Source of the DNA: a virus
Reading direction: 5' to 3' (one strand)
IMG/VR virus record: IMGVR_UViG_3300030118_005441
Coordinates: 1 to 43,421 of that record
DNA length: 43,421 bases
The stretch's first letter is position 1. Every line of letters begins with the position of its first letter. Made by a program: the position numbers and the translations under genes. The notes under the pieces were generated by a model that searched no databases, was not told where the DNA came from, and was given only the letters and a program-made list of their open reading frames with translations. Positions 602-43,139 of this stretch are shown here, one piece after another.

Positions 602-1020
602 TGAAAAAATTAAACAATTGGGAACAACAGTTTCACAGATTTTTATGTGAAAACAAAGACAGAAAATTTCGATGGGGTCGATGGGATTGTGTCATATTTG
701 CAAATTCCGCTTGTAAGGCGATGTCAGGAGAGAAACTCATTCCTGAGTATCTTTACTGGGAAAACAAAAGAACTGCCGTTAAAACGATAAAAGAATACGG
801 AGAAACGCTATTAAACAGCATGATTAAAGGGACAAAAGAAAAAGGCTTGAAAGAAGTGCCTAATGATGAAATTAAAAAGGGCGACATTTGCGTTTATAAC
901 TCGAATGGTAAAAATATCACTGGGGTCTGTGATGGTTATGCTATTTTGTCCCCTGCTTCAGAAGGTTATGCTTACAGCGATATAAACACCGCAATTAAGG
1001 TTTTTAGGATTAATGGCTAA
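601..1020 (+). CDS. NlpC/P60-like (DUF6950-type) tail assembly protein
   Basis: The 139-residue protein carries the signature WGRWDC (residues 25-30) with Cys30 where NlpC/P60 and DUF6950 proteins hold their cysteine. The position between the DUF2163 hub and a J-like tip protein matches the GTA and lambda-type order, where a peptidase-like protein helps tail tip assembly or crosses peptidoglycan. I chose ATG 601, which overlaps the upstream stop (TGATG), over TTG 598. I see no clear catalytic histidine: the expected GH motif region reads GVCDGYAIL. The protein may therefore be structural rather than an active peptidase. It overlaps the next gene by 8 bases, which suggests translational coupling. 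Confidence 0.75.
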   Translation: MKKLNNWEQQFHRFLCENKDRKFRWGRWDCVIFANSACKAMSGEKLIPEYLYWENKRTAVKTIKEYGETLLNSMIKGTKEKGLKEVPNDEIKKGDICVYNSNGKNITGVCDGYAILSPASEGYAYSDINTAIKVFRING

Positions 1021-4000
1021 ACAAATTAAAACAGCAATTGTTGCGGCTGTCGTTGTTATTACAGGGATGTATTTAGCAAAAGGCATCGGCACTTTGCTGA
1101 AAATTAAAGATTTAGCAGGTCTTACTTTTGCGGCTATAAAAAAACGTGCGATCTATGCGTTTGCAGGAACTCTGGTTGCGGGTGCTTTTGGTCAATTGAC
1201 AAATAAGGGCGTCAACGCATCGATGGACAACTTCGGTAGAAAAGTTGCTGTATCTGGAATCGCCGTACCTCGTCAAATTATTTATGGATCAAATGTTCGT
1301 GTCGGTGGGACGATTGTAAAATTAGACAGTCGAGGGGCGAACAATGCAATTCTCTCGATGGCAATTGTGATCGCGGGTCATGAAATTGATGGATTCAATA
1401 AAGTTTTTGTCAATAATAAAGAACTGACCACATCTAGTGCAACCGTTAGCGGTGAAACAGTATTCACTGCGACCAATTCAGATTTTACCAACACCGATAA
1501 TAACAGTAATTTTGGATCGGGTGCTCTCATCAGATTTACTTTCCACAAAGGAGATCAAACTGCTGTCGATGGTTTAGCGGCGGCTGAAAATTCATCAAGA
1601 TATCCATCAACTTGTAAGTTCCTTGGATGTGCATATTTTTACATGGAGTTCGTTTATGATCCTGAAAAAATGCCCTCACTTCCTGAAGTTTTTTTCAACG
1701 TCAAAGGAAAGAATGTTTTTGATCCTAGAACAAATGCGGTGGCAAATACTGATTTACAAAGAGCAAACCCTGCGCTTCAAGCTAGAGATTTTTTAACAGA
1801 TACAACCTATGGACTAAAAGCATTGGATGCTGAAATAAATGATGGAGCAACAAACGGTTCTGATGTCGGCAGTTTCTGCCATGCCGCTAATATTTGTGAT
1901 GCTAATTTGACGACTGGCGGTGTCACAGAGACCACTTACACCTCCAATGGATTTTTTCATTTTAGTGCAACGGGCAATGGAGTCATTCAAGCTATTTCAT
2001 CGGCCTGTGCAGGAAATCTTACTTATACAAATGGAAAATTTAATTTCTTTGCAGGAACTACTCAAACGGCCTCTTTAACAATTACCGATGACAAAATTAT
2101 TGGGACTCCCGATATACAAACGAAATCTTCAAGTGGTGAGTTATTCAACTCGGTAAAGTCGGTTTTTGTAGATTCAGGAAATAAATTTAACATTGCCGAG
2201 ACACCGTTATTTGAAGATGCGTCTATGCTTACAGAAGATACTCCAGATGGTGCGAGTGCAAGTGCGGCGACAAAACAGCATTTCAAAAAAACTTTAGAAA
2301 TGCGATTCCCAATGACGACTTCAGAAACAATGGCGCAACGATTGCAAAAAATATCTCTTTTGGATCAGAGGCAAACAACTCAATTATCTCTTGTTACAAC
2401 CACTGAATTTATGAAAGCACAACCGAATGACTACGTGACTGTTACTAACGACCGTTTAGGCTTTACTGCAAAACTTTTTAAAATAGAGGATATGGCTTTG
2501 ACGTTTTTGGAAAGCGATGGCGCCATTTTTATTGCTGTAAACTTAACATTAAGAGAGACTGCAACTTCCATTTTCACATTTGGTTCGTATCAAACGCCTC
2601 AAGACAATAGCGCTGACGCTACGGTCGGAGTTCCAACCTGTCCTATTCCCACAAACGGAACACCATCGCAAGTAAAGGGGCAGGAGGGTCCGACAACAAA
2701 AATTAATATTAAAGTTCCTTGGACAAATGCAAATGACCCCAAAGTATTAGGCACTGAAGTTCAATATAAATTAAGTGGGGATTCGACTTATGAAAATGCG
2801 GTTGTTGCGACCAAAGGACAAACTGAAGCAAGCATACCTAATGTGACAGTTGGTGAAACTTATAACATAAAATTAAGGCATTTTACGAAAGACAATGTTT
2901 ACAGTGCATTAACAAATGAAATGACGATCGGTGTTACACAACCTGATTCTGGTCCTGCCTTGCCGACAAATGTAAGCGCCACCACAGATAAACCGCTGAT
3001 GATCGAGGTGGAATGGACAAATCCATCAAATGTTAATCTTCGCGCTGTAGAGGTTCACGTCAGCACGACATCAGGTTACACGCCATCGAGTAGCACGTTG
3101 ATTGGCACTTACATTGGAGACGTTGGTAAGAAAAAAACGATTATTTTAGGGATTGCTCACGGTTTAGCATTTGACACAATCCAATACATTAGACTTCGAT
3201 CAATCAATGTGTACGGTACAAGTTCTAATGATGGCAGTGGCAATGATACTTACACGACTCAAGTGCAGGGCAAAATGCTGAAAGTCGCAAACACAGATAT
3301 TTCAGTCAATAACCTCGCCGCAATCAGCGCAAATCTTGGCACTGTTACAGCAGGATCATTGGCATCAAATCTTATTACAGGTGATGTCTCAGAAGTTTAT
3401 CCTTTGATGAGGTCAGTAAGTTCAAGCGTAAGCACTTCATTCACAGATAAATTCACTTTCTCTATACCTGCGCCTACAAATGGGATTGCAAAACGACAAA
3501 AAATTGATGCAACCATTGAATTCCGTCTTGGCAATGCAGGTCAAAATACACCCAACGCAAAAACTTTTATTTCTGTCAGATGTATGAAAAAAAGCAAGGG
3601 TGTGAATGCGGTTAGCGTTGGTACTGTCGTGGCTGTCGATAATGATACAAGTTTCACTCAAATTATAGAAATTTCAGGCAATGTGTTAAATGTGGTTGAT
3701 ATCAGCGGTGGTGTTGCTTCAACGAATGACGCCAGTGGAACAAATGAACCCGCAACCATCCGTGATGTATTTTATGATGCTTCTACAAATAGAACGTTCA
3801 TTGGTATTGAAGCATCTGGGGTTGTGTTTACTACAAGTGATTCTGTGTTTTACAGTGATTCCAAATTTAATTCATCAGGAACTTTCGTTTCGACTCTTGT
3901 GGATCAAACTTACTTTCAAATCACGCCTCCTGATCCAGATGATACATTGGGGAATCAAAGCATATTTTTTCCATATCGGGGAACTTTTGGAACTACGACA

Positions 4001-4102
4001 ACCGCAACAGAATTTAAAATTCAAGCCAAACGAACAAACCTTCAGGCAAGTTGTTCGCTTGACATAAATAAAATTTTTGGAACTTTGGAAAACATATCAT
4101 GA
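1013..4102 (+). CDS. Tail tip / host specificity protein, lambda J-like
   Basis: This 1029-residue protein directly follows the hub and NlpC-like genes, the usual place of the J-type central tip protein that contacts the host. Residues about 5-65 are hydrophobic and Ala/Gly rich. The segment around YGSNVRVGGTIV (about 90-103) resembles the start of the conserved J core. Residues about 545-640 and 645-745 look like two fibronectin type III domains (VPWTNANDP, EVEWTNPSNV). The C-terminal 280 residues are beta-rich with no family I recognise and may be the receptor-facing part. ATG 1013 overlaps the upstream gene, and the stop overlaps the next start (ATGA at 4099). Family by context and weak similarity; exact receptor role inferred. 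Confidence 0.75.
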   Translation: MAKQIKTAIVAAVVVITGMYLAKGIGTLLKIKDLAGLTFAAIKKRAIYAFAGTLVAGAFGQLTNKGVNASMDNFGRKVAVSGIAVPRQIIYGSNVRVGGTIVKLDSRGANNAILSMAIVIAGHEIDGFNKVFVNNKELTTSSATVSGETVFTATNSDFTNTDNNSNFGSGALIRFTFHKGDQTAVDGLAAAENSSRYPSTCKFLGCAYFYMEFVYDPEKMPSLPEVFFNVKGKNVFDPRTNAVANTDLQRANPALQARDFLTDTTYGLKALDAEINDGATNGSDVGSFCHAANICDANLTTGGVTETTYTSNGFFHFSATGNGVIQAISSACAGNLTYTNGKFNFFAGTTQTASLTITDDKIIGTPDIQTKSSSGELFNSVKSVFVDSGNKFNIAETPLFEDASMLTEDTPDGASASAATKQHFKKTLEMRFPMTTSETMAQRLQKISLLDQRQTTQLSLVTTTEFMKAQPNDYVTVTNDRLGFTAKLFKIEDMALTFLESDGAIFIAVNLTLRETATSIFTFGSYQTPQDNSADATVGVPTCPIPTNGTPSQVKGQEGPTTKINIKVPWTNANDPKVLGTEVQYKLSGDSTYENAVVATKGQTEASIPNVTVGETYNIKLRHFTKDNVYSALTNEMTIGVTQPDSGPALPTNVSATTDKPLMIEVEWTNPSNVNLRAVEVHVSTTSGYTPSSSTLIGTYIGDVGKKKTIILGIAHGLAFDTIQYIRLRSINVYGTSSNDGSGNDTYTTQVQGKMLKVANTDISVNNLAAISANLGTVTAGSLASNLITGDVSEVYPLMRSVSSSVSTSFTDKFTFSIPAPTNGIAKRQKIDATIEFRLGNAGQNTPNAKTFISVRCMKKSKGVNAVSVGTVVAVDNDTSFTQIIEISGNVLNVVDISGGVASTNDASGTNEPATIRDVFYDASTNRTFIGIEASGVVFTTSDSVFYSDSKFNSSGTFVSTLVDQTYFQITPPDPDDTLGNQSIFFPYRGTFGTTTTATEFKIQAKRTNLQASCSLDINKIFGTLENIS

Positions 4103-7321: not shown

Positions 7322-7347
7322 TTCTATTCTCCGCAACGTTTACAAAA

Positions 7348-7686: not shown

Positions 7687-7699
7687 TCATCAGTTGGAA

Positions 7700-8940: not shown

Positions 8941-8958
8941 CTTACTAAATGAACTCCA

Positions 8959-9295: not shown

Positions 9296-9325
9296 AAGAT
9301 AACACACTCTTGGGGGTATGTGATT

Positions 9326-10087: not shown

Positions 10088-10097
10088 GCTCTTCTCC

Positions 10098-10559: not shown

Positions 10560-10563
10560 TTTT

Positions 10564-11343: not shown

Positions 11344-11379
11344 TTTTTCGAGCACCTCTTTTCTGTCATTTGAATCATC

Positions 11380-11408: not shown

Positions 11409-11451
11409 GATCAAATGTGATAAAATAAAAATTATTTCTTTGGAGTAATTT

Positions 11452-21550: not shown

Positions 21551-22765
21551 ATGAGTGAAGATATTAAAACTTTAGTGTCCGAGATGGGTTCGGCTTTTGA
21601 GGAGTTCAAAAAAAGCTATGACGAAAAATTGGACAAGATGGCTAAAGGACAGGAAGATTCAGCGCTTGATGCTAAATTAGCCGCTATCGAAGCAAAGATG
21701 GACAGCTATGAAGACATCAATCAAAGAATGGTTCAGTCTCAAAAAAGCCAAGAAGCTCTTATGGAGCAGATGGATAGGGTGGAGGTCGCGATGCGTAGAC
21801 CTAACTCTGGATTTTCAACAAAGCAAATTGACGAAGGCATATCAGCCTTTGACGCTTATTGCAGAAAAGGAATTGAGGGATTAAGCCCTGATGAAAAGAA
21901 AGCATTGACTGTTTCTAATGATTCAACTGGCGGATATCTTGCACCTCCTGAGTACGTGAGAGAGTTGATCAAAGATATTACTGAAATATCGCCAATCAGA
22001 TCAATTGCAAGAATCAGACAAACAGCACAGCGTTCAATACAGATGCCAAAGAGAACTGGCACTTTTGCGGCGCAGTGGGTTGCTGAATCAGGAACAAGAT
22101 CAGAGACAACTGGATATCAAGTTGGCTTGGAAGAGATACCTGCTCATGAATACTATGCGTTGGTGGATATCTCTGAGCAAGACCTCGAAGATTCAGTATT
22201 TGATCTTGAAGCGGAAATGCAATCAGAATTTGCCGAGCAGTTTGCGAAAGCAGAGGGTGCGGCATTTGTATCTGGTAACGCGGTAGGTAAGCCCGAAGGA
22301 TTCATGACAAACTCTGATGTTTCTGAAGTAGTATCTGGTAACGGAACTGCTTTGACAGGCGATGGTCTAATTACTTTGGTTCACAGCGTAAAAGCTGAGT
22401 ATTCTGCAAATGCGACTTTTGTTTTTAACAGAAGCACATTGGCGGCAATTCGAAAGTTAAAAGATACAGCGGGACAATATGTTTTCCAAGCAGGGATGAT
22501 GTTAACTGGTGGACCAATGACGACTGTTTTAGGACACCCGTACATTCAAGCGACTGATATGCCAAACGTAGGAGCAGGTAATTTCCCTGTTGCGTTTGGT
22601 GATTTCAGAAGAGGATACATGATAGTTGACCGCGTTTCTCTTGCAGTTTTACGTGACCCATTTACTCAAGCAACAACTGGAAATATCCGATATGTTGCAA
22701 GACGTAGAGTTGGTGGTCAGGTAATTTTGCCAGAGGCTATCGTTAAACAAAAAGTTTCAGCGTAA
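21551..22765 (+). CDS. Major capsid protein, HK97 fold
   Basis: The 404-residue protein is of the Phage_capsid family. Residues about 15-80 form a charged coiled coil like the HK97 delta domain that acts as internal scaffold and is removed by the protease. The shell part starts near GGYLAPPEYVRELI (about 118-131) and includes GTRSETTGYQVGLEEIPAHE and the late segment DRVSLAVLRDPFTQA. GAGG precedes the ATG. The position right after the S78 protease is standard. Confidence 0.93.
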   Translation: MSEDIKTLVSEMGSAFEEFKKSYDEKLDKMAKGQEDSALDAKLAAIEAKMDSYEDINQRMVQSQKSQEALMEQMDRVEVAMRRPNSGFSTKQIDEGISAFDAYCRKGIEGLSPDEKKALTVSNDSTGGYLAPPEYVRELIKDITEISPIRSIARIRQTAQRSIQMPKRTGTFAAQWVAESGTRSETTGYQVGLEEIPAHEYYALVDISEQDLEDSVFDLEAEMQSEFAEQFAKAEGAAFVSGNAVGKPEGFMTNSDVSEVVSGNGTALTGDGLITLVHSVKAEYSANATFVFNRSTLAAIRKLKDTAGQYVFQAGMMLTGGPMTTVLGHPYIQATDMPNVGAGNFPVAFGDFRRGYMIVDRVSLAVLRDPFTQATTGNIRYVARRRVGGQVILPEAIVKQKVSA

Positions 22766-23618: not shown

Positions 23619-23951
23619 ATGACGACACTATTTCTGGTTCAGGGAGATACAGGGCCACAGGTTCAAGTTAATCTGACCCGTGCTGACACTGGTTCTGCTG
23701 TCGATTGTTCTGGTTCTACATGCACGATGAAAGTACGAGCAAGAGGATCAGATTCCACCTTGTTTACTTTGACAGCGGCAAACTCTGGCACTAATTTTCA
23801 AAACGGTATTTTGACGTTTGCGTTTGGAAATAATCTTGCATCCATAGATGCGGGGACATATGAAGGAGAGGTCAATGTCGTTTTTTCTGATGGTTCAATT
23901 GAAACAGTTTTTGAGGTTGTTGACTTTGTAGTAAGAGATGACTTTAGTTGA
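23619..23951 (+). CDS. BppU N-terminal-like beta-sandwich protein
   Basis: The 110-residue protein (MTTLFLVQGDTGPQVQVNL...) has the pattern of the N-terminal domain of baseplate upper proteins (BppU_N): a start like QGDTGP, then a beta-sandwich with SGSTCTMKVRARG and GTYEGEVNVVFSDG. In phages such domains anchor fibres or receptor-binding proteins. Its stop overlaps the TTG start of the next gene (TTGA), coupling it to the repeat protein. Confidence 0.6.
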   Translation: MTTLFLVQGDTGPQVQVNLTRADTGSAVDCSGSTCTMKVRARGSDSTLFTLTAANSGTNFQNGILTFAFGNNLASIDAGTYEGEVNVVFSDGSIETVFEVVDFVVRDDFS

Positions 23952-25132
23952 GTTTAATAAAACTTTCTCTTACTGACAAATCGATTCGCAAGGTTGTTGT
24001 CGATAAGTCTCTGCTTCACTCGATAACGGACAAATCTTTAAGAGCAAGTTTTGAAACGGGAATATTTTTTCGATTCATCGAATTCGAGAACTCTCTTTCT
24101 GCAAGTCAAAGCATATCTTTAACAGTAGGTAAAGGATTCGCAAATGCGTTAGTATTAACGGATGAGCCATCACTAGGATCAACAAAAACATTTTCCAATT
24201 CGGCAACTGTTGGGGATGAACCAAGTTTCCCGTTTGGTAAAGTAATATCAAACACAGTTGACTTTTCTGACGATCCATCTTTTGCTTTAGGTTTAAGTTT
24301 CAACAATTCTGCAATTGTAATTGACTCGCCATCTTTGGGATCACAAAAAAGTTTTTCCAACTCCGCTGTTTTTACAGATAATGATGTCATTGTCCCAAAC
24401 AAAGTAATAAACAATGCTGTTAGTTTAGGCGATGAACCAAGTTTCCCATTTGGTAAAATTTTAAACAATTCATTTGCAGGCGCAGATTCACCCTCTTTGA
24501 ATCCACAGAAAGGTTTTTCAAATTCTGGGGCTCTCTCAGACGATGATTTGCTCACCCTTACAAAGATACTCAGTGATGCGTCAAGTATCGCAGAAAGCGA
24601 AACACGAGCAATAATCAAGCCTCTCAGCAACGCTTTAGGGTTAACAGATGAAGAGGTTGTTCAACCAAACAAAATATTCTCAAATGCAAGTGCGTTGACT
24701 GATAATGACGTTGTTTCTCTATCTAAATTAAGAGCGAACAGTTTTGTTGGTGCTGATAATGACACAATTCTGATTGGAAAAGTATTTGCAAATAGTGCCG
24801 CATTTACAGATGTCCAAGCGTTACCACTGAACAAGGTCGTCAATAATTCTGCTAATTTTACAGATTCACCAAGCTTTAGCAGATTAATTCAATTATCGGA
24901 TACTGCTTTTGTGACGGATGATGCAGACGGTGTGGCAGGAGATGACAGTACCTTTACATTTGTAAAAACTATTTCCAATTTCACTGTTTTGAGTGATAAT
25001 GATATTATTGCTTTCGGAAGTGTCCAAAACAACAGTGTTGGGCTGAGTGATGCAGGAGTTGGCAGAAGTCAAGGTTACTGCGCTTTTGATTATTTCGCAG
25101 AAGATTATGTTGGATCAAGTTTCACTTTTTGA
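23948..25132 (+). CDS. Repeat protein of about 17 units of 18 residues, probable fibre shaft
   Basis: The 394-residue protein is made almost wholly of 18-residue units from residue 46 on, with consensus N-S-A-x-x-x-D-x-x-S-x-x-x-x-K-x-x-S. Examples are NSATVGDEPSFPFGKVIS and NASALTDNDVVSLSKLRA. One unit near the end has an eight-residue insertion. Regular short units with conserved Asn and Asp suggest a beta-solenoid or trimeric fibre. The start must be TTG 23948, overlapping the upstream stop, because no ATG exists in this frame nearby. It has no signal peptide. The C-terminal 25 residues (YCAFDYFAEDYVGSSF) are aromatic. Family not recognised. Confidence 0.7.
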   Translation: MSLIKLSLTDKSIRKVVVDKSLLHSITDKSLRASFETGIFFRFIEFENSLSASQSISLTVGKGFANALVLTDEPSLGSTKTFSNSATVGDEPSFPFGKVISNTVDFSDDPSFALGLSFNNSAIVIDSPSLGSQKSFSNSAVFTDNDVIVPNKVINNAVSLGDEPSFPFGKILNNSFAGADSPSLNPQKGFSNSGALSDDDLLTLTKILSDASSIAESETRAIIKPLSNALGLTDEEVVQPNKIFSNASALTDNDVVSLSKLRANSFVGADNDTILIGKVFANSAAFTDVQALPLNKVVNNSANFTDSPSFSRLIQLSDTAFVTDDADGVAGDDSTFTFVKTISNFTVLSDNDIIAFGSVQNNSVGLSDAGVGRSQGYCAFDYFAEDYVGSSFTF

Positions 25133-25144: not shown

Positions 25145-25597
25145 ATGGACAATCAAACAAACATCAAACTCAACGGAGAACTAGAGATAGTTTTACGTGA
25201 TAAGTTTGGAAAAATTAAAGAAAAAAGAACTGAGAAGAATTTGATCGTAACGGTTGGTTTGACGTTCATTTGTTCTCGTATGACAGGTACATCTAAAAAC
25301 GTGATGTCTCATATGGCACTTGGATCAGGTACAACTGCGGCGGCGGCAGGTCAGACCGATTTAGTATCGATTCTTGGCTCGAGGGAAGCCTTAGACAGCG
25401 CAACACCTTCAACCAATACTGTTGTATATGTTTCGTCTTTCGAAGCAGGAGAAGGCACTGGTGCGGTTACAGAGGCAGGCATCTTCAATGCTAGTAGTAG
25501 TGGGGACATGCTTTGTCGAACTGTTTTTCCTGTGGTGAACAAAGCGTCAGACGATACAATGTCTGTTACTTGGACTATTACACTCACAGCATCATAA
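25145..25597 (+). CDS. Conserved virion protein, probable fibre adaptor
   Basis: The 150-residue protein has ALGSGTTAAAAGQTDL (about 58-73), then FEAGEGTGAVTEAGIFNASS (about 98-117) and MLCRTVFPVVNKA. I recall this motif set from fibre-associated proteins in marine phages. An N-terminal basic stretch precedes it. It stands right before the giant fibre gene and may join fibre to tail; this is inference. AAGG lies upstream of the ATG. Confidence 0.6.
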   Translation: MDNQTNIKLNGELEIVLRDKFGKIKEKRTEKNLIVTVGLTFICSRMTGTSKNVMSHMALGSGTTAAAAGQTDLVSILGSREALDSATPSTNTVVYVSSFEAGEGTGAVTEAGIFNASSSGDMLCRTVFPVVNKASDDTMSVTWTITLTAS

Positions 25598-25607: not shown

Positions 25608-28600
25608 ATGGCTACAATAGTCACGCGCAGTGGTAAAGGGTCGCCTCTTACTAATAACGAGGTTGATGCTAACTTTACCAACTTAAATTCCGACAAACTT
25701 GAAATTGGCGGTGGGACGCTCACGGGCGCTCTCACTGTTGATTCAGGTATTTCCATTGATAATATAACCATTGACGGTACTGAGATCGATCTCTCTTCTG
25801 GCGACCTGACATTAGATGTAGCAGGAAACATCATTCTTGATGCAGATGGTGGAAGTATTTCCTTCAAAGATGGAGGTGTAACAAAAGGTCAAATACAAAA
25901 CTCTTCGAATGATTTAGTTTTAAAAGTAAATACAGAAAACAGCGATTTAAAACTCCAAGGCAATGATGGAGGAAGTTTAATCACAGCCCTTTCTCTTGAT
26001 ATGTCCGATGCAGGCACGGCGATATTTAACGCGGGTGCAAGTTTTACAAAAAATATAGAAATCAACGGTGTCAATACAACAAGTGGTTGTCATATTCAAT
26101 TTACAAACGCGGCGGCTAGTAAAGTTTTTCAAATTGGTGCAGGACAAGCAGGTATAACTAACGCGGGTTTTGTTTTACGGAACGTCACTGATAGCACTTT
26201 CCCTTTAGTCATAAGCGACTCAGATGCGGCTACGTTTACAGGAGCAGTCACAGCCAATGCAGGTATTTCTGTAGATAATATAACTATTGATGGCACTGAG
26301 ATCGATTTATCTTCTGGTGATTTAACAATTGACGTTGCGGGTGACATTATTTTTGATGCTGATGGAGATGATTTTATTTTTGCCGCAGGTGGCACGAACA
26401 TAGGTAAAATAACTAATTCGTCAACTGATTTTTTAATTAGGTCGCTAGTACAAGATAAAGACATAATATTTAAAGGGGATGACAGCGGAACTACTATTAC
26501 AGCCCTCACCCTTGATATGTCAGAAGCAGGAGCCGCAACATTTAATGCAGGTGCTACTTTTGGCGGACGCGTGGGCATCGGTGGGTCTTCTACTTTTTCA
26601 ACCTTAGAAGTAATTGGAGATAAAACCGAAAGCGATAATCTACAGCTTACCCTTAAAGGTTCTACAGACACCAATAAACAAATGATAATGGGTTTTGATA
26701 CAACAGCAAATACTGCTCATATCACAACTCAAATAGCAGGTTCTGCACCAACTCCCCTTATATTTAAAACAGGTAATGTTGTATTTAACGAAAGCTCAGT
26801 AGACGCAGACTTTCGAGTGGAGTCTAACGGCAACGCTAATATGCTGTTTGTTGATGGTGGCAATGATCGCGTTGGGGTGGGAACTGGAAGCCCGTCCCAT
26901 ACTATGCATGTCGTAAGTGCAGGTAACGGAGAAATAAAAGCTGAAAGGACTAGTGGTGCGGCAATTTTATTGCAAGCTCAATCAGCAAACGGAAAAATAG
27001 GAACTTCCACAAATCATAATTTAGGTCTTAACACGAATGGCACGACAAGATTAACTATTGATACAAATGGCAAAGTATTAATTAACGATAGCTCTAGTCA
27101 TACCTCAGACTTTTTACAAATAGAAACGCCTGCATCTGGAGGTGGTCATGGTATACAGATAAGAAGAAACGATGCAAACAATGACCAAACAGTAGGAGCA
27201 ATCACATTTGGTAACAACACCGACACAGACCTAGCGCAAATATCTGCAAAAACAGATGGTGATAGCAACAGCGGAGACAGCGGTGCATTACTGTTTAGCA
27301 CACAAACAACAGGCGGTTCGCTTACGGAGCGCCTTAGAATTACTTCAACAGGAAGTTTAGCGAAAACAAGTGGTGATTTAACGCTAGACGTTGCGGGTGA
27401 CATTATTCTTGATGCTGATGGTGGAGATATTGTTTTTAAAGATGGCGGAAGTTCAATAGGACGATTTAAAAATAATTCAGGTAATTTTGTAATAAAATCT
27501 GAAGGTTCAGACGATGATTTAATATTTAAAGGTAACGATGGCGGTAGTGAAATCACAGCCGTTACTTTTGATATGTCTAATGCAGGTGCGGCTACGTTTA
27601 ATTCTAATATATCAGCGGGCGATATTTCTGGCGGTATTATCACAGCTTCAAGCAGTTCAGACTATCCATTACGAGTAAATAGCACAGACGCTTTTTCTGG
27701 AATCGTTATAGCAGATAATACCAGTACCACAAATGGAAATGTAATCTCTGTAACAGGAGATAACATGAACTTTTTCACAGGTGGTACATCCTCTAGCACA
27801 GATATTGCACTTACTCTTGCCAGTAATAATAACGCAACTTTTACTGGAAGTATTACTGCAAGTGGTGGGCAAATTAAAAATGCTAATAATGCAAACGCAA
27901 GCAGTCACAACTTTCTTGTTGAAACAACTAATAAAAGTAATAGTCTTTATGCTTATGGTGCTGACCGCAACGGCACGATGTATGGCATAAAAGTTGATGG
28001 TGGAATAGTAGCTGAAAACTTATTAACAAGGTCATCTGGCACATCAAATTTAAGATTAGGGAACAATGCAGGACAAAATATTGAAAGCGGTGGTAATTAT
28101 AATACTGTCGTGGGTGATAATGCAGGTAATGCGATTACTACGGGTGACCAAAATGTAGCTATTGGCTATAACTCACTTAAAACTGAAGACACAGGAAGTC
28201 GTTCCATAGCTATTGGTTCATCTGCATTAAAACTACAAAATGCAGGTGATGTCAACGCTTATAATATTGGTATAGGACACAACTCAGGTATTAATATCAC
28301 CACGGGCGTTCAAAACACTTTAGTGGGTGGTTTATCAGGTGATGCACTTACGGACGCTGACTATAACACAGTACTTGGATATGCCGCATTATCTTTCGAC
28401 ACTAAAGGATCAGGTGCTGTAGCGATAGGCTATGCCGCTTTAAATGATCAAAATTTTTCATCAGCTACGACTAATTATAATGTCGCTATAGGATATTTCG
28501 CAGGTGGTGAAGTAACCACAGGCATTCAAAACACGATTATTGGTGGCTTGGCAGGTGATGCTATCACTGACGCTGACGCTAACACAGCACTTGGATATTC

Positions 28601-31600
28601 CGCATTAAGTTCTGATACACTTGGGAGTAACTCTGTAGCTATCGGACGTGCCGCATTACAGGCTCAAAACTTTACCTCTGCAACTAATAATTACAATACA
28701 GCGGTGGGTTCTAATGCAGGTTTCTCAATAACTACAGGATTTGACAACACTTTAATTGGAGGGCTAGCAGGTGATGCCCTTACAGATGCAGATTATAACA
28801 CAGCTGTTGGAAGAAGTGCTTTAACATCAGACACACTTGGTAGCAGGTCCGTAGCTTTAGGGTACGCGACTTTAGCAACTCAAAACTTTACTTCAGCCAC
28901 TAATGCTTACAATATCGGAGTGGGCTATAATGCAGGTAACGATATAACCACAGGGGTAAATAATACTCTAATAGGTGGGTTAGCAGGAGACGCACTTACA
29001 ACTTCGACTAGAAATACTGTATTAGGTTATACCGCTTTAGGTTCAGAAACAGCAGGTCAATATAATACAGCATTAGGATATGCCGCTTTAGCACTACAAA
29101 ATAACACGGGTGGCGGTAATATTTATAACACCGCTGTAGGTTACAATGCAGGCGCACAAGTGACCACAGGAAAAAACAATACCCTTATCGGTTCTTTATC
29201 AGGTGATGCAATAACAACTTCTTCAAATAATACAGCGGTAGGTTACAACAGTCTTTCAAGTCTTACTGAGGGTGACAACAATGTTGCTGTAGGCGGTGAT
29301 TCTTTATTTTCCAACACGGTCGGAGACAAAAACGTAGCGGTTGGTAGAAGCGCATTGTTGAATTTTAACCCTGCATCAAATGCTGACACCTACAATACAG
29401 CAGTTGGACATGAAGCAGGTAAATCAGTCACCACAGCCACACAAAATGTTCTTATGGGAGGACTTGCCGGAGATTCACTTACGACAGGCAGTAATAATGT
29501 AGCAATTGGTTATACAGCTTTAGGGGTTGATACAGCAGGCGCAAGTTCTGTTGCTATAGGGGCTTTCGCTTTAGACGCTCAGAATCTTTCGGTTAATTCA
29601 TATAATGTGGCAATAGGTAGAGATGCAGGTGGTTCAGTAACCACAGGATTTCAAAACACCCTTATCGGTGGTCTAGCAGGAGACGCACTTACAGATGCAG
29701 ATTACAATGTAGCGGTGGGAAGCGTTGCCTTAAGTACAGATACTTTAGGCAGTAGGTCAACTGCTATAGGATACAATGCTTTAGCAAATCAAAACTTTAC
29801 ATCAGCAACGGACACCCATAATACAGCGGTTGGTTTTCATGCAGGTTTAGCTGTAACCACAGGGATTAACAACACTCTCATTGGCGGCCTAGCAGGAGAT
29901 GCTTTAACAGCAGGTTCAGATAACACCGTAATAGGACGCGGTGCTCTTACAAACGATACAACAGGAAGCAGAAGTGTTGCCATTGGAAATTACAGTCTTG
30001 CAACTCAAAACGGAACAACTGGCAATGTGTATAATACTGCGATTGGGTATAGTGCAGGAACCTCAATAACCACAGGAACACAAAACACCCTTATTGGTGG
30101 ACTAGCAGGTGACGCGCTTACTGTTGCATTTAACAATGTTGCTTTGGGTTATGCCGCTTTAGGTAATGATTTAAAAGGCGGCAGGAGCGTGGCTATTGGA
30201 ACTGAATCCTTAACCACCCAACAATTTGGCGTTACCACAAATGTTTATAATGTAGGAGTAGGTCATCAGGCCGGAAGATTAATTACTTCAGGATTTCAAA
30301 ACACCCTGATAGGAGGATTTGCAGGTGATGCACTTACCGATGCTGACTACAACATTGCGATTGGTCAAGGAGCGTTGGGTGCTGATACTCTTGGAAGCAG
30401 GGCTGTAGGCATTGGTGTTTTTGCGTTAAACGAACAAAATTTTTCTTCAGCAACAGATAATTACAATGTTGCGATGGGTTTCTATGCAGGTAGAAAAATT
30501 ACCACAGGCTTTGATAACACCATCATCGGTGGTTTGGCAGGTGATGCTCTTACTAATTCAAGTTATAACGTAGCGGTTGGAAGAAGCACTTTATCAACCG
30601 ATACACTAGGCTCAAGAAATGTCGCAATTGGATGGTCAGCTTTAGCTACACAAAATTTTACGTCTGCAACTACATCTTATAATGTTGGATTAGGATTCCA
30701 AGCAGGTAATCAGATAACTATAGGAACCAATAATACTTTAGTCGGAAGTCTTGCAGGTGATGCTCTAACAGATTCAGATAGAAACGCAGTGTTAGGTTAT
30801 AACGCTTTAGGTCAAGAAACACTAGGTCAATATAATGTGGCAGTAGGTTATGCCGCTTTAGCCACACAAAATAATACTAGTGCCACTAATGTTTATAACG
30901 TAGCAGTGGGTTACAACGCAGGTGGTGCAGTAACTACAGGAACTACCAATACACTTGTTGGTGGACTTGCAGGAGATGCAATTACAATAGGCAGTGAAAA
31001 TGTTGCTATGGGTTATGGTGCTCTAGGAGCTAATGTATCTGGAGACCGCACAGTTGCAATAGGATATAATGCATTAGCCGCACAAAATAATGGCACAACC
31101 ACATTTGATGCTAATAATACTGCCGTTGGATTTCATGCAGGTTTAGCAATAACAACTGGAACACGAAATGTTGCTATAGGTTCAGATGCTTTAGCGACAG
31201 CAGATGATGATGGCAGAAACATTGCTATCGGTTATGCCGCCTTGAATCTTATGAATACTGGAAACTCTACACCTTACAACGTAGCCATAGGATATAACGC
31301 AGGTGCTTCAATGACCACCGCACTTCAAAATACAATCTTGGGTGCTTTAGCAGGAGATGGTTTACAAGCAGGTGGCGAAAATGTCGCATTAGGTTATGAA
31401 GCATTAACTGACTCATCAGCATCTACTGGCAATACAGCAGTGGGTCATCAGGCAATGGCTAACATGGCTGATGGTGACAGCAACGTAGCTATCGGTAAAT
31501 TAGCCATGTTTGGTGGTAGCAGTTCTGATGCAAACAATAATGTTGCAGTGGGCTCACAAGCATTAAGACTTACCACGACAGGAGGTAACAATGTAGCTGT

Positions 31601-34600
31601 AGGTTTTACCGCAGGTAAAGCAAGCACCACAGGACATAGCAATGTCGCTATTGGATTCGAAGCATTACTTAATGAAGATACAGGTAGAAAAAATGTTGCT
31701 ATAGGATATGAAGCTCTTAAAGAACAAAATGGAGACGCTGATAATCACAATGTAGCAGTGGGTTATCAATCAGGCGGTGATATAACCACAGGTATACAAA
31801 ATACCTTAATAGGTAGCTTTGCAGGTGATGCACTAACGGATGCTGATTTCAATGTAGCAATGGGTGTTGCCGCGTTAGGTCAGGACACTTTAGGCAATCA
31901 TTCGGTTGCGATAGGAACATACGCGTTAGCGGCTCAAAACTTTAGTTCTGCAACTAATGCTTACAATGTGGCAGTAGGCTCTAGTGCAGGCACTTCTTTA
32001 ACTACAGGAACGGGGCATACGCTTATCGGGGGACTTGCAGGAGACTCTTTAACAACAGGATTAGGCAACACTGCTGTAGGTACAAATGCTTTAGGCGGTG
32101 AAACTACGGGAAGGTATAATGTAGCTATTGGTGAAAATGCATTAAAAGACCAAAATTTTTCTGGTAGCAATAATGTTTATAACGTAGCTGTTGGTAGATT
32201 GGCCGGTGAAAATGTTACCACAGGTCTCCAAAATGTTCTTATGGGTGGCTTGGCAGGAGATGCACTCACCGACGCTGATTTCAACGTAGCTGTAGGCCAT
32301 CAGGCACTTAGTGGGGATACTTTAGGTTCAAGAAGTACAGCAATAGGTAGGTCTGCATTAAAAACCCAAAATTTTACAAGTGCTACAGATAGCTACAATG
32401 TTGCGATAGGATTCGGAGCAGGTGAAAATGTTACCACAGGCAGATACAACACTTTTGTTGGCGGTCTTGCAGGAGATGCACTCAATACAGGTGGCCAAAA
32501 TATTGCTATTGGATATGCGTCATTAACAAATGATACAAAGGGTTCTAAATCTATAGCAATAGGTGAATCTGCATTGTTCTCGCAAAATTTTAGTTCTGCC
32601 ACAGATACTTTCAATGTCGCGGTAGGTGAAAACTCAGGTATGGGAGTAACCACAGGTCTAGGTAACACCCTCATCGGTGGTTTGGCAGGTGATGCTTTAA
32701 CCGACGCTGATAGCAATCTGGCAATTGGGTATCTTGCTTTGACATCAGACACACTGGGTAGTAAATCTACTGCTGTAGGTCGTCGTGCTTTAGGCACACA
32801 AAATTTTTCGTCAGCTACCGATACATTTAACACCGCTGTTGGATATAACACAGGTCTTAGTATAACCACAGGCACTCTAAATACCCTGTTAGGGGGTGAA
32901 GCAGGTGATGCCTTAACAACAGGCTCTGAGAATATTGCCATGGGCTATGGTGCTTTAGGTGCTGAAACCACAGGGACAAAAAATGTTGCAATTGGAAGTG
33001 AAGCATTAAAGACCTTAGACCAACAAGGAAACGGTGATAATGTTGCTGTCGGTCATAATGCAGGTAGAAGTGCAACTTCTGCTTCTCAGCTAGCAATCAT
33101 AGGTTCATTGGCAGGAGATGCAATTACAACAGGTGCAGGAAATACTGCAATAGGATATGCCGCACTAAGCACTGAAACAGCAGGAAGAAGAAATGTTGCA
33201 GTTGGAGCAGAGGCTTTACTACGAGCAGGTGACCACGTAACAACAGGAGTTCAGAATGTTATAATTGGAGGTCAGGCCGGTGATGCGTTAACTGATTCTG
33301 ACCATAATGTGGCTATAGGGTTTCAAGCGTTGTATCAGGATACGGTTGGAAGCAAAAGCATTGCAATAGGTAAGCAAGCTCTTTACTCTCAAGCACGTTC
33401 TTCAGCTGTAGATACCCATAATGTTGCGGTAGGACATCAAGCAGGTTACAACGTAACCGAAGGTGTCCAAAACACCCTTATCGGTGGTCTAGCAGGTGAT
33501 GCTTTAACTCATGCCGATTTCAATATTGCAGTGGGATACAACGCTTTAGGGGCAGAGACCAGAGGAGAGCGTAATGTTGCTATAGGAAACTCGGCACTTG
33601 CTTCTCAAAATAACACTTCACAAGGTGCTATCTACAACACCGCAGTAGGTAACAATGCGGGACTTTTAGTGACCACAGGGCTTCAAAACACCCTTATCGG
33701 TGGTCTAGCAGGAGACGCACTTACAGACGCAGATTTCAATGTGGCTATGGGTTATGCGGCACTGGGTGGAGACACTTTGGGTAGCAGAAGCGTTGCTATA
33801 GGTCATGGTGCTTTATCAGTACAAAACTTTACCTCTGCCACAAATTCTAATAACACCGCAGTTGGTTTTTCCGCAGGAGAAAACGTCACGACAGGTATAG
33901 AGAATACATTAATTGGTGCGCAAAGTGGTGATAATTTGACTGTTGGCTCATCTAATATTGCAGTGGGTTTATTTTCTTTGCATTCAGATACAAAAGGAAG
34001 CAGAGCGATAGCTATTGGAAGAAACGCACTTGGTACTCAAAACTTTACTAGCGCTACGGAAAATTACAATATAGGAGTAGGTTATAACGCAGGTTCATCA
34101 ATAACCACAGGCGTACAAAACGTCATCGTAGGAGGTTTAGCAGGTGACTCCCTCACCACTGCTAATGAAAATGTTGCTATCGGTACAGTCGCGTTGTCAG
34201 CAGACACACAAGGCACTAGAGCGGTAGCCATAGGTTCATCGGCTCTTGCGTCTCAAAATTTTTCTAGTCAGCAAGATAATTACAACGTTGCTGTCGGATT
34301 CCAAGCAGGACTATCAGTGACTACAGGTGTTCAGAATGTGTTGCTTGGTGGTTTTGCGGGTGACGCTTGTACAGACGCTGACTTTAATATTGCTATAGGA
34401 TACGGTGCATTAGGATCAAATACTGTTGGATCAAAATCTGTTGCTATAGGTCAAGGTGCTTTAGTTTTGCAAAACCCCGCATCAGCGACTGATATGTTTA
34501 ACGTAGCTATTGGTCATCAGGCAGGTAATGATATAACCACTGGTCTTCGTAATACATTTATCGGTGCACTTTGTGGTGATAATACTGATGACGGTGTAGA

Positions 34601-35246
34601 AAATGTAGCAGTTGGTTATGCGGCATTAAGTGCAAACTGTGGAGACCATAATGTCGCTTTAGGTCAAGAAGCTTTGTTTGCTTGCACTGGTTCAGGAAAT
34701 ACTGCTGTTGGAAGGGCGGCAGGTCTTAATGTGACCAGTGGCACAAATAATTTATTCTTAGGCGAAGATGCAGGTCGTTCTGGTAGTCCTGGAGGAGAAA
34801 TAACTACAGGTGCTAATCAAATTGTGCTTGGCGATGAAAATATCACCAATGCTCATATACAAGTTGCACTCACAGTTGCATCTGATGAGCGTGATAAAAC
34901 AGACTTTACAGACTTAGATGTTGGTTTAGATTTTGTTAAACAATTAAAGCCTTACACCTACAAGTGGGATAAACGTTCAAACTATGATGATAATACACCA
35001 GATGGCACTCACAAAGAAGATTGGCTTGATATTGGATTTAAGGCACAAGATGTTGAAGCACTTGAGCAAGCCGCAGGTTATGACAAAGCAAATAAAACAA
35101 ATCTTGCTGTTACCATGTCAGAAGATGGCAAGCAATATGGTATGCAGTATGAGAAATTAATACCAATTTTAACAAAAGCTATTCAAGAACAACAAGATAT
35201 AATTGAATCTTTAACAGCAAGAATTACTGAACTTGAAAAAAAATGA
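25608..35246 (+). CDS. Giant tail fibre with YadA-head-like repeats and a C-terminal S74 chaperone
   Basis: This 3212-residue protein is 22% of the genome. Residues 1-35 hold a conserved phage fibre start (RSGKGSPLTNNEVDANF). Residues 40-800 are beta-rich, with three copies of a module starting IDGTEIDLSSGDLTLD. From about 805 to 3060 there are roughly 28 macro-repeats, usually 72 residues, each made of four turns of the NxAxGxxA type seen in YadA-like trimeric adhesin heads. Ser3092 and Lys3097 (SDERDK) mark an S74 auto-cleaving chaperone of 121 residues, which assembles trimeric fibres and is cut off. The frame is unbroken, so it is likely expressed whole. Confidence 0.9.
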   Translation: MATIVTRSGKGSPLTNNEVDANFTNLNSDKLEIGGGTLTGALTVDSGISIDNITIDGTEIDLSSGDLTLDVAGNIILDADGGSISFKDGGVTKGQIQNSSNDLVLKVNTENSDLKLQGNDGGSLITALSLDMSDAGTAIFNAGASFTKNIEINGVNTTSGCHIQFTNAAASKVFQIGAGQAGITNAGFVLRNVTDSTFPLVISDSDAATFTGAVTANAGISVDNITIDGTEIDLSSGDLTIDVAGDIIFDADGDDFIFAAGGTNIGKITNSSTDFLIRSLVQDKDIIFKGDDSGTTITALTLDMSEAGAATFNAGATFGGRVGIGGSSTFSTLEVIGDKTESDNLQLTLKGSTDTNKQMIMGFDTTANTAHITTQIAGSAPTPLIFKTGNVVFNESSVDADFRVESNGNANMLFVDGGNDRVGVGTGSPSHTMHVVSAGNGEIKAERTSGAAILLQAQSANGKIGTSTNHNLGLNTNGTTRLTIDTNGKVLINDSSSHTSDFLQIETPASGGGHGIQIRRNDANNDQTVGAITFGNNTDTDLAQISAKTDGDSNSGDSGALLFSTQTTGGSLTERLRITSTGSLAKTSGDLTLDVAGDIILDADGGDIVFKDGGSSIGRFKNNSGNFVIKSEGSDDDLIFKGNDGGSEITAVTFDMSNAGAATFNSNISAGDISGGIITASSSSDYPLRVNSTDAFSGIVIADNTSTTNGNVISVTGDNMNFFTGGTSSSTDIALTLASNNNATFTGSITASGGQIKNANNANASSHNFLVETTNKSNSLYAYGADRNGTMYGIKVDGGIVAENLLTRSSGTSNLRLGNNAGQNIESGGNYNTVVGDNAGNAITTGDQNVAIGYNSLKTEDTGSRSIAIGSSALKLQNAGDVNAYNIGIGHNSGINITTGVQNTLVGGLSGDALTDADYNTVLGYAALSFDTKGSGAVAIGYAALNDQNFSSATTNYNVAIGYFAGGEVTTGIQNTIIGGLAGDAITDADANTALGYSALSSDTLGSNSVAIGRAALQAQNFTSATNNYNTAVGSNAGFSITTGFDNTLIGGLAGDALTDADYNTAVGRSALTSDTLGSRSVALGYATLATQNFTSATNAYNIGVGYNAGNDITTGVNNTLIGGLAGDALTTSTRNTVLGYTALGSETAGQYNTALGYAALALQNNTGGGNIYNTAVGYNAGAQVTTGKNNTLIGSLSGDAITTSSNNTAVGYNSLSSLTEGDNNVAVGGDSLFSNTVGDKNVAVGRSALLNFNPASNADTYNTAVGHEAGKSVTTATQNVLMGGLAGDSLTTGSNNVAIGYTALGVDTAGASSVAIGAFALDAQNLSVNSYNVAIGRDAGGSVTTGFQNTLIGGLAGDALTDADYNVAVGSVALSTDTLGSRSTAIGYNALANQNFTSATDTHNTAVGFHAGLAVTTGINNTLIGGLAGDALTAGSDNTVIGRGALTNDTTGSRSVAIGNYSLATQNGTTGNVYNTAIGYSAGTSITTGTQNTLIGGLAGDALTVAFNNVALGYAALGNDLKGGRSVAIGTESLTTQQFGVTTNVYNVGVGHQAGRLITSGFQNTLIGGFAGDALTDADYNIAIGQGALGADTLGSRAVGIGVFALNEQNFSSATDNYNVAMGFYAGRKITTGFDNTIIGGLAGDALTNSSYNVAVGRSTLSTDTLGSRNVAIGWSALATQNFTSATTSYNVGLGFQAGNQITIGTNNTLVGSLAGDALTDSDRNAVLGYNALGQETLGQYNVAVGYAALATQNNTSATNVYNVAVGYNAGGAVTTGTTNTLVGGLAGDAITIGSENVAMGYGALGANVSGDRTVAIGYNALAAQNNGTTTFDANNTAVGFHAGLAITTGTRNVAIGSDALATADDDGRNIAIGYAALNLMNTGNSTPYNVAIGYNAGASMTTALQNTILGALAGDGLQAGGENVALGYEALTDSSASTGNTAVGHQAMANMADGDSNVAIGKLAMFGGSSSDANNNVAVGSQALRLTTTGGNNVAVGFTAGKASTTGHSNVAIGFEALLNEDTGRKNVAIGYEALKEQNGDADNHNVAVGYQSGGDITTGIQNTLIGSFAGDALTDADFNVAMGVAALGQDTLGNHSVAIGTYALAAQNFSSATNAYNVAVGSSAGTSLTTGTGHTLIGGLAGDSLTTGLGNTAVGTNALGGETTGRYNVAIGENALKDQNFSGSNNVYNVAVGRLAGENVTTGLQNVLMGGLAGDALTDADFNVAVGHQALSGDTLGSRSTAIGRSALKTQNFTSATDSYNVAIGFGAGENVTTGRYNTFVGGLAGDALNTGGQNIAIGYASLTNDTKGSKSIAIGESALFSQNFSSATDTFNVAVGENSGMGVTTGLGNTLIGGLAGDALTDADSNLAIGYLALTSDTLGSKSTAVGRRALGTQNFSSATDTFNTAVGYNTGLSITTGTLNTLLGGEAGDALTTGSENIAMGYGALGAETTGTKNVAIGSEALKTLDQQGNGDNVAVGHNAGRSATSASQLAIIGSLAGDAITTGAGNTAIGYAALSTETAGRRNVAVGAEALLRAGDHVTTGVQNVIIGGQAGDALTDSDHNVAIGFQALYQDTVGSKSIAIGKQALYSQARSSAVDTHNVAVGHQAGYNVTEGVQNTLIGGLAGDALTHADFNIAVGYNALGAETRGERNVAIGNSALASQNNTSQGAIYNTAVGNNAGLLVTTGLQNTLIGGLAGDALTDADFNVAMGYAALGGDTLGSRSVAIGHGALSVQNFTSATNSNNTAVGFSAGENVTTGIENTLIGAQSGDNLTVGSSNIAVGLFSLHSDTKGSRAIAIGRNALGTQNFTSATENYNIGVGYNAGSSITTGVQNVIVGGLAGDSLTTANENVAIGTVALSADTQGTRAVAIGSSALASQNFSSQQDNYNVAVGFQAGLSVTTGVQNVLLGGFAGDACTDADFNIAIGYGALGSNTVGSKSVAIGQGALVLQNPASATDMFNVAIGHQAGNDITTGLRNTFIGALCGDNTDDGVENVAVGYAALSANCGDHNVALGQEALFACTGSGNTAVGRAAGLNVTSGTNNLFLGEDAGRSGSPGGEITTGANQIVLGDENITNAHIQVALTVASDERDKTDFTDLDVGLDFVKQLKPYTYKWDKRSNYDDNTPDGTHKEDWLDIGFKAQDVEALEQAAGYDKANKTNLAVTMSEDGKQYGMQYEKLIPILTKAIQEQQDIIESLTARITELEKK
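28026..34790 (+). repeat. About 28 in-frame 216-bp repeats coding the beta-roll shaft
   Basis: The typical unit is 216 bp (72 codons): four turns of 17, 17, 17 and 21 residues, with recurrent text such as NTLIGGLAGDALTDAD and GSRSVAIG. Most units keep length exactly; a few are shortened (near 31130) or enlarged (near 29270, 31340-31740 and 33220). Some units share long exact DNA stretches, for example 45 bases at 29651-29695 and 33683-33727, which points to recent duplication or gene conversion. Confidence 0.9.
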
Positions 35247-35904: not shown

Positions 35905-36207
35905 ATGAGTGAATCAATCAAAGTTCCATCTTGGGCAGTTCCTCTGGTAGCGGCCATTATTCCTGCGGCTATTGCATGGGGTACAATGCAAGCGCAAGCA
36001 CAGGCAACCGATGAGGAAGTCGCAAAAGTATCAAAGGTCGTTGAAAAATTGGAAACAACGACCACAGATAATGCGGTCCGCACAAAGTTAAATGAGCAAG
36101 CCATTCAAACAATCGCTGATGGACTTGCACAGCAAACTGAAATAAGTAAAGCCACTGATGAGAAACTAGGAACCCTTATTGAGATAATGTTGAAAGAAAG
36201 GCGATGA
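35905..36207 (+). CDS. Membrane-anchored coiled-coil protein
   Basis: The 100-residue protein has one membrane segment at about residues 8-27 (WAVPLVAAIIPAAIAWGTM) and then a long helical, polar coiled coil to the end. This resembles i-spanins or holin-associated proteins. AAAGGAG lies seven bases upstream. The stop overlaps the next start. Part of a small membrane-protein module far from the lysozyme. Confidence 0.6.
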   Translation: MSESIKVPSWAVPLVAAIIPAAIAWGTMQAQAQATDEEVAKVSKVVEKLETTTTDNAVRTKLNEQAIQTIADGLAQQTEISKATDEKLGTLIEIMLKERR

Positions 36208-37054: not shown

Positions 37055-37717
37055 ATGGCAGGAGTAACAGTCACAACACCGCCAACGATCGAGCCGCTTA
37101 CGGCATCTGATATCAAAACATATTGTCGAGTACAAGATGATGATGATCTTGATATTTTGTTGATGATGGGGAAAACTGCGCGACAATATTGTGAAGAATA
37201 TACAAACCGCGCTATTGTTACTCAAACTCTGACGATGTTTTTGGATGCGATAGATGATCGAGATGATCCTCTATTTGAAGGCGTTAGAACGGGTCCTTAT
37301 CTGAATTATTATAAAAATTACATCACGCTTTCAAGAGCGCCTGTGCAAAGTGTAACGAGCGTTCATACTTTTGATGATTCTGATAATGCAACGCTTTTTG
37401 CCAATACGAAATATTTTGTTGATAATAGTCGTGAGCCTGCAAGAATCGTTTTGAGGACGGGAGAAACTTTTCCCGTTGCTCTAAGGGTAGCAAACGCAAT
37501 CAAAATAATTTACAAAGTTGGTTATTCAACTATGTCTTTAGTTCCAGAGCCGCTTAAAATTGGAATGCTAATGCATGTTGCTTATATGTATGACCAAAGA
37601 GGTGACATGAAAGATTATTTGCAAACGCGATCGATGCCACCAATGATTAAAAAACTATACTCACCTTATGTGATTCATGGTGGTCTTGGAAGTTCAACTC
37701 TCCTGAGTTTGGGATAA
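37055..37717 (+). CDS. Head-tail connector, gp6-like
   Basis: The 220-residue protein shows the phage gp6/QLRG connector pattern: TASDIKTYCRVQDDDDLDIL at the N-terminus, ARQYCEEYTNRAIVTQT, and later PEPLKIGMLMHVAYMYDQRG. Such proteins form the ring below the portal. Its last base is the first base of the next gene start, so genes are packed tightly. Confidence 0.82.
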   Translation: MAGVTVTTPPTIEPLTASDIKTYCRVQDDDDLDILLMMGKTARQYCEEYTNRAIVTQTLTMFLDAIDDRDDPLFEGVRTGPYLNYYKNYITLSRAPVQSVTSVHTFDDSDNATLFANTKYFVDNSREPARIVLRTGETFPVALRVANAIKIIYKVGYSTMSLVPEPLKIGMLMHVAYMYDQRGDMKDYLQTRSMPPMIKKLYSPYVIHGGLGSSTLLSLG

Positions 37718-42268: not shown

Positions 42269-43139
42269 AATAATCACCATACCGACAAACGCAGGTCTTG
42301 TCTCTTCTAACTTTACCTTGACAAATACCGTAGGGGCGTCTGTTTCGCCATTTACGGGCACTTATAGAACACAGGAATATGATTACTCATATTGGTCTGG
42401 CGACATTACTGTGAGGCCTATGAAGCGTTCTGACGTGGTTGAATGGCAATCCTTTCTTGCTAATTTAGAGGGCACAACAAATTATTTTCAATTCGGTGAT
42501 CCTGATGCTTTTACGCCAAGAGGAACTTATGATCACACGCATTTACTGGCCGATGTAAGAGTTGATTCTGGATCGAACGTAAATAGTGCGACTCTTACTT
42601 TTGCAAATACCAATTCGGTGGTGACATCTACTTCTGCGATATTTGACGGTTTAGTTGTCAATGATTTTATTACTATTTCAGGAGCCGTCAATTCTGAAAA
42701 CAATGGAACTTTCAAAGTCACTACGTTTACAAGTAGCACAGAAATAGAGGTTGATGCAGTTTTAACGGATGAATCAAGCACCGCAAGTTGCAGGGTTCGT
42801 CAAAACACGAAAGGCGCAAGAGCACTTTCTTTGAAAGCAACGACAGGAAAATCAGGCACTATCAAACAGGGCGATTATCTGAGTGTGCAAGATGGCAGTG
42901 GTAATATTAAGCAATTAGTTATGGCAACTGCTGATGCGACAGTAACGAGTGGATCACCGAATCTTTACTCTGTAGCAATACAGCCAAAACTTCGTTTGAG
43001 TGTTGCTGATGACTCCATCATAGGATTTTCAAGTGCATCAAATCGAGGATTATTTCGGTTAGTAGAGAATACGGTTGAATGGCAAGCAAATAATGTTTCT
43101 CTTTATCGGATAAGTTTTGGATTCACTGAGGTGATCTAA
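42261..43139 (+). CDS. Distal tail protein (Dit-like)
   Basis: The 292-residue protein begins with a Dit-type domain (TYRTQEYDYSYWSGDITVRP, MKRSDVVEWQSFLANLEG, NYFQFGDPDAF). The middle (about 115-175) contains an inserted beta module (FDGLVVNDFITISGAVNSEN), and the rest returns to the Dit-like end. It follows the tape measure and precedes the hub, as in other siphoviruses. The stop overlaps the hub gene ATG (TAATG). Dit assignment rests on context and partial pattern. Confidence 0.7.
   Translation: MPKIITIPTNAGLVSSNFTLTNTVGASVSPFTGTYRTQEYDYSYWSGDITVRPMKRSDVVEWQSFLANLEGTTNYFQFGDPDAFTPRGTYDHTHLLADVRVDSGSNVNSATLTFANTNSVVTSTSAIFDGLVVNDFITISGAVNSENNGTFKVTTFTSSTEIEVDAVLTDESSTASCRVRQNTKGARALSLKATTGKSGTIKQGDYLSVQDGSGNIKQLVMATADATVTSGSPNLYSVAIQPKLRLSVADDSIIGFSSASNRGLFRLVENTVEWQANNVSLYRISFGFTEVI

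Follow-up and report, generated by a model that had tools for sequence, protein, structure and literature searches.

The giant fibre protein encoded in the window, by which we mean the whole analysed stretch of 43,421 nucleotides, is in our judgement fairly probably a long tail fibre, belonging to a marine siphovirus whose tail is of the GTA type, and the fibre shaft probably evolves by swapping of repeat units. Individual units of this shaft are 86–100% identical to units in other phages, where they stand in a different order. The fibre and its repeat array, as first observed, are confirmed, and the initial annotation of a giant phage fibre is supported by a regular parallel-beta shaft in the single-chain model and by the Peptidase_S74 domain at the C-terminus. 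The features of the window are listed in Table 1; related loci and contigs are denoted by L numbers.

Table 1. Coordinates of the fibre gene, its parts, the cassette genes and the neighbouring genes in the window.
Feature	Coordinates	Strand	Evidence
Tail hub / megatron-like protein	1013..4102	+	Pfam Phage-tail_3; phrog_5616 tail fiber protein; synteny
Major head protein	21551..22765	+	PHROG 10; synteny in L003, L004, L005, L242
Cassette gene A1 (110 aa), moves together with the fibre	23619..23951	+	Synteny in L006-L082; phrog_1084 (unknown function)
Cassette gene A2 (394 aa), repetitive and rich in Ser/Asn/Asp, moves together with the fibre	23948..25132	+	Synteny
Cassette gene A3, 150 aa, probable fibre adaptor	25145..25597	+	Weak PHROG tail-fibre match
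Giant fibre gene, 3212 aa	25608..35246	+	Single open frame; PHROG tail spike/virion structural families; Pfam Peptidase_S74 at C-terminus
Fibre N-terminal anchor, about 47 aa, begins MATIVTRSGKGSPLTNNEVDANFTNLN	25608..25748	+	Conserved in relatives
Proximal stalk, aa 48–814, SSGDLTLDVAG...-type repeats, without turn motif	25749..28049	+	Translation
Turn array, aa 815–3065, about 125 turns in 28 macro-units (17-17-21-17 residues)	28050..34802	+	Segmentation, regex, model
Distal capping unit, aa 2982–3065	34551..34802	+	100% identical in sibling contig L083
Intramolecular chaperone (Peptidase_S74), with Ser3092 (SDERDK) as predicted cleavage site	34881..35246	+	Pfam; motifs conserved in relatives
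Head-tail adaptor; with the major head protein brackets the cassette in this lineage	37055-37717		PHROG 442

The fibre gene takes up 22.3% of a 43.19 kb genome (with the overlap of the window ends taken into account), close to the initial estimate of 22% of 43 kb. The N-terminal anchor is 89–91% identical in L003, L004 and L005 and 53–97% identical in many marine cassettes, and the proximal stalk has patchy matches to tail fibres of Roseobacter and Pelagibacter phages. At the other end, the Peptidase_S74 domain (aa 3092–3156) is found with an E-value of 4.9e-11 and 43.2 bits, the Pfam cut-off being 22. The S74 processing motif, SD..(R/K)..K plus G..AQ, is present as SDERDK and GFKAQD in the alignment with 20 relatives, and the chaperone is probably self-cleaving. 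The predicted cleavage serine comes only about 27 residues after the last turn, hence the fibre contains no separate knob or tip domain. The C-terminus has no Pfam match above the cut-off other than Peptidase_S74; a C-terminal outer-membrane anchor is absent.

The array was segmented by hand into 125 turns at aa 832–3065, plus one degenerate turn at 815, consistent with the initial count of more than 100 turns. Most turns (92 of 125) are 17 aa long and 22 are 21 aa long, the others having 16, 18–20 or 22 residues, in agreement with the contrast drawn in the initial annotation between these 17-residue turns and the 14-residue turns of YadA-like heads. The turns form 28 units, the number originally estimated, each opening with an NTLIGGLAGD-type turn; exactly 72 aa in the 17-17-21-17 pattern are seen in 20 of them. 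A regular expression for the turn, which counts slightly too many turns, yields 137 matches in the repeat region, whereas 200 shuffled sequences give 23.7 on average and 35 at most. The core turn positions are nearly fixed, whereas the residue pairs after the G of GxxA and after the next conserved residue are hypervariable and lie at the surface, mostly with 2–3 bits of entropy.

The units within the array are old. Their mean identity to each other is 58% at the amino-acid and 59% at the DNA level, with a maximum of 74% for DNA, and the identity at four-fold (silent) sites is 0.40, compared with about 0.33 expected from the base composition, that is, the silent sites are near saturation. Moreover, neighbouring units are no closer to each other than distant ones. 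Recent tandem duplication is ruled out by these two observations. Exact internal DNA repeats reach 46 bp at most, and TRF finds no DNA-level tandem repeat in the fibre gene, because the units are so diverged in DNA.

Near kin of the window are L004 and L005, whose A3 proteins are 98% and 96% identical to that of the window, respectively. The major head protein of L004 is 100% identical to that of the window, and the genes downstream of the fibre in L005 are mostly 97–99% identical. Both contigs keep the N-terminal 47 residues of the fibre but continue with giant shafts of another type, at least 1933 aa in L004, where the sequence is cut off, and 2791 aa in L005, the latter fibre also having an S74 domain. 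Hence fibres of great length are common to this small group irrespective of the shaft type.

A related shaft with its units in a different order is seen in L083, whose fibre C-terminus is 99% identical to that of the window. It carries, in this order, window units 2425, 2495 and 2550, then 2137 and 2209, three units with no close match in the window, and finally 2910 and 2982, the matched stretches having 96–100% DNA identity. Thus the block 2425-2495-2550 precedes 2137-2209, the reverse of the order in the window; these differences in unit order come from metagenome contigs, and L083 by itself might conceivably be a chimera between strains, against which speak the identical arrays obtained from two pairs of separate metagenomes. 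Window units 1119 (97%) and 2425 (99%) occur in L086. In L084, units 2137 (90%) and 1709 (95%) are present with a piece of 1854 (88%) between them, and comparison of L084 with its siblings L430 and L431 reveals one more displaced unit. L084 is classed as a podovirus-type phage from its genes for a gp12-type tail, internal virion proteins, the head-tail adaptor and the head. In unit pairs compared between phages, there are mostly fewer non-synonymous than synonymous changes per site, unit 2550 being the exception. Taken as a whole, the pattern suggests that these fibres were assembled in evolution like strings of swappable beads.

Downstream of the fibre, at 35905-36207, the window encodes a 100-aa probable coiled-coil protein that is 96–99% identical in L084, L085 and L152, the identity between L084 and the window being 99%. 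Since at least one of these is a podovirus-type phage, the conservation suggests that this gene travels with the distal part of the fibre.

We propose the following scheme. The conserved 47-residue N-terminus, together with A1–A3, would dock the fibre to the tail-tip hub. The chains would fold into a rod of about 60 nm, in which each turn of 17–21 residues forms one rung of a parallel beta-roll; for this step we have a single-chain model and presume a trimer. By analogy with its family, the S74 domain would nucleate trimerisation and then cut itself off at Ser3092. As no knob is left after that, contact with the host should fall to the variable residue pairs at the turn surface or else to the distal capping unit. 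Recombination would exchange complete units of 72 residues, or blocks larger than that, in register from phage to phage, and within one array it would be stopped by too large a difference in DNA, keeping the array stable; here the pattern is observed and the mechanism is presumed.

Two comparisons place the fibre among known systems. The S74-chaperoned fibres and spikes, such as K1F endosialidase and the L-shaped fibre protein pb1 of T5, share with it the C-terminal chaperone family and the large chain, but in the window fibre the cleavage site is not preceded by an enzymatic or knob domain, the shaft is built of 72-aa four-turn units and the chain reaches 3212 aa. Tail-fibre sharing between distantly related marine phages was described for Alteromonas phages A5 and V22 (PMC10579305). 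There, as here, host-recognition parts are exchanged between different phage families; however, A5 and V22 exchange a whole module, whereas in the shaft considered here single 72-aa units also move and change order.

The shaft may be a spacer or ruler that carries a receptor-binding tip outward, with the unit sequence irrelevant to binding, a possibility that we take seriously even though we would put it somewhat below even chances. The array is repetitive, most of the unit pairs compared between phages are predominantly under purifying selection, and the replacement of the array by similarly giant shafts of another type at the same locus in L004 and L005 suggests that length matters. Against it stand the short distance from the last turn to the cleavage site, with no room for a distinct tip domain, and the hypervariability of the paired surface positions on a fixed core. 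A bolder interpretation is that the shaft itself is the receptor-binding surface, with phages of different families sharing one stock of pre-folded units of 72 residues, which recombine in register where the turn codons are conserved. In this full form it seems to us rather unlikely; if true, the fibre would be a changeable string of weak binding sites and not a stick with one tip.

The assignment to the tail is based on the gene neighbourhood. In the window, the major head protein is followed by five small or medium genes including A1–A3, then by the fibre and the connectors, and the genes 3' of the fibre include the head-tail adaptor (37055), the terminator, the major tail protein and the tape measure. 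The cassette, consisting of A1–A3 and the first 47 residues of the fibre, is present in many marine contigs. A2 adjoins it in nearly all relatives, and has neither a family match nor a match in phage records. A1 had been guessed from its sequence to be a BppU-like baseplate protein; the Pfam test gave no such match. The A3 model is of low confidence (pLDDT 61), and its best fold match is a tail chain of virus HFTV1 (E 1.4e-3). We found A3 in 88 loci, mostly beside a fibre N-terminus. The nearest informative gene upstream of it is the tail hub in 39 of the 88 (at 2.2–6.1 kb) and the capsid gene in 12, neither being in range in the other 37, and a holin follows in 8 of the 39 hub-type loci. The full order in L034 is hub, a 4099-like gene, A1, A2, A3, fibre, holin; its hub and the one in the window are 48% identical.

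Since most marine relatives have the cassette between the tail-hub gene and the holin, the protein is most likely a tail fibre and not a head fibre, as far as can be judged from gene order and family matches. The PHROG matches of the fibre are to tail spike and virion structural families. In L084, the fibre with units in common with the window is immediately preceded by a 214-aa protein, whose matches to tail-fibre N-terminal families come from PHROG only, and the T7 fibre-anchor model PF03906 has no match in L084 and the others, the controls being silent as well. In a marine roseophage of the GTA-like tail type, cryo-EM revealed three fibre trimers on the hub-megatron complex, and the fibre gene, 017, is numbered next after the megatron gene, 016 (PMC10276861).

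A protein hanging from the capsid and aiding the first contact with cells would be the alternative for a gene situated between the capsid and connector genes. Fibres of the phi29 gp8.5 type are such capsid-hung head fibres. The position in this lineage, if considered alone, would fit a head fibre, and two of the matching PHROGs are classed as 'head and packaging: virion structural protein'. We nevertheless regard this reading as improbable. In most relatives the same anchor and adaptor cassette lies on the hub side; several relatives with 73–79% identical capsid proteins have the capsid-connector site empty and lack the cassette, so this site is simply an insertion site; and no other long fibre gene exists in the hub-holin region of the window. 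The empty site, together with the hub-side cassette elsewhere, indicates that the cassette appears to have moved, and the tail-tip region appears to be its more common home.

The GTA-type tail module of the window (distal tail protein, tail protein, hub) with a GTA-type holin occupies positions 42261-43421 and 1-5062. This module and the best capsid match, which is in a Rhizobium phage, suggest an alphaproteobacterial host. Other genes of the window include a ParB-domain/DNA methyltransferase fusion (13385-14605) and a PAPS-reductase-like protein (8068-8940, minus strand).

The fold of the shaft was modelled by AlphaFold2 for three units as a single chain (75 sequences), yielding pLDDT 78.1, pTM 0.74 and a strand at the start of each turn. 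As only one chain was modelled, we infer the trimer, its handedness and the rise per turn; if the latter is assumed to be 4.8 angstrom, 125 turns would give the length of about 60 nm. The model has no PDB match at E≤0.001, with no YadA head among the 50 best, and the sequence search of PDB with the shaft profile, the C-terminus and A3 returned nothing convincing. Predicted viral proteins from BFVD do match it (E from 2.7e-7 to 1e-5, TM up to 0.82). The best of these are a giant-virus FhaB-like adhesin, chlorovirus-type repeat proteins and phage proteins; the FhaB-like and chlorovirus repeat proteins, unlike the window fibre, belong to eukaryotic viruses. The Pfam chlorovirus repeat, Chlorovi_GP_rpt, was rejected, having no match in the window.

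The resemblance to YadA heads noted in the initial annotation stands at the motif level, whereas the PDB search with the single-chain model gives it no support at the level of fold. The shaft shares with the YadA-like head (Ylhead) of trimeric autotransporter adhesins the SVAIG-type motif and a proposed parallel beta-roll with one rung per turn, and differs from it in turn length, anchor and secretion route. Searched by stretch, Pfam YadA_head has 20 in-frame matches, which sum with their neighbours to 30.8 bits against the cut-off of 25, one of 14 control genomes also exceeding the cut-off; the whole-protein Pfam scan produces no YadA_head match. That the shaft is a true member of the YadA-type heads, acquired from bacteria, would agree with its N-x-A-x-G-x-x-A motif and with the confinement of the YadA_head matches to the fibre frame. 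It is hardly probable, given the period of 17 or 21 instead of 14 residues, the negative fold and whole-protein searches, the lack of autotransporter parts and the near absence of relatives in cellular genomes, as opposed to hundreds of viral contigs. We therefore accept kinship by motif, not membership, as the period differs and the autotransporter anchor is absent.

The shaft-profile scan detected at least 582 confirmed relatives in viral contigs. Among 84,980 bacterial and archaeal genomes there are four weak relatives, two of them with an S74-like motif by simple pattern match; with so few matches, bacterial genomes were rejected as the source of the unit. From all loci fetched we obtained 278 distinct arrays; the 154 complete arrays among them have a median of 34 turns, and the highest count is 88. 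Counted with the same regular expression, the window array has 143 turns and is the longest of the 279 arrays in this sample, which comprises the best matches per query and does not amount to a census. This shaft type is common in ocean viromes, where it occurs behind no fewer than five kinds of N-terminus. We found no papers in the open literature naming this repeat in phages.

The turn motif, mainly with the 17-residue period, is also seen in the cultured marine phages HTVC111P, HTVC112P, CRP-1, P-SSM2, Venkman and Kolga, and in the single-cell virus AG-345-L05. Five of the cultured phages were counted (HTVC112P was left out) and have 21–31 regex turns, versus 143 in the window; AG-345-L05 has 89. 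The fibres of the cultured phages and of AG-345-L05 mostly lack the strict 17-17-21-17 unit seen in the window. In AG-345-L05 (Marine virus, L318) the protein is an unannotated one of 2491 aa at 4270-11742, the largest such fibre among the named phage records examined. Thus the fibre was rightly called striking as regards its length, whereas marine viruses commonly have both the 17-residue turn and the 72-aa four-turn unit. What is unusual in the window fibre is its length and also the shuffling of units, the latter invisible to the initial annotation.

The window ends (1-230 and 43192-43421) overlap by 230 bp with 11 mismatches (95.2% identity), which suggests a closed or almost closed genome of about 43.2 kb; the mismatch of about 5% indicates that more than one strain was probably present and that the assembly mixes strains. 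A tail gene starting at 43139 continues at 2-601 across the window ends. A chimeric or expanded array assembled from such mixed strains is very improbable: the source is indeed a metagenome contig with mismatched end overlap, and unit order does vary between contigs, but the 9.6 kb frame is unbroken, the units are at most 74% alike, the same locus in L005 (a 41.5 kb contig) also encodes a giant fibre, and related arrays from independent metagenomes agree, namely L085 with L327, and L430 with L431 (99.7% over 6.25 kb). The low unit identity, the 46-bp longest repeat and the negative TRF result make the array resolvable by short reads, and with such a short longest repeat its collapse or expansion by short-read assembly is unlikely.

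To our knowledge, nobody can read the fibres of most uncultured ocean phages. Here a widespread shaft type consists of discrete units that are individually traceable between a siphovirus and a podovirus-type phage. Tracing of units lets the rearrangement of fibres in nature be followed, and binding by the shaft as opposed to the tip becomes testable. For protein designers, the arrays are also of use as a natural collection of beta-roll blocks that can be stacked and whose compatible neighbours are known.
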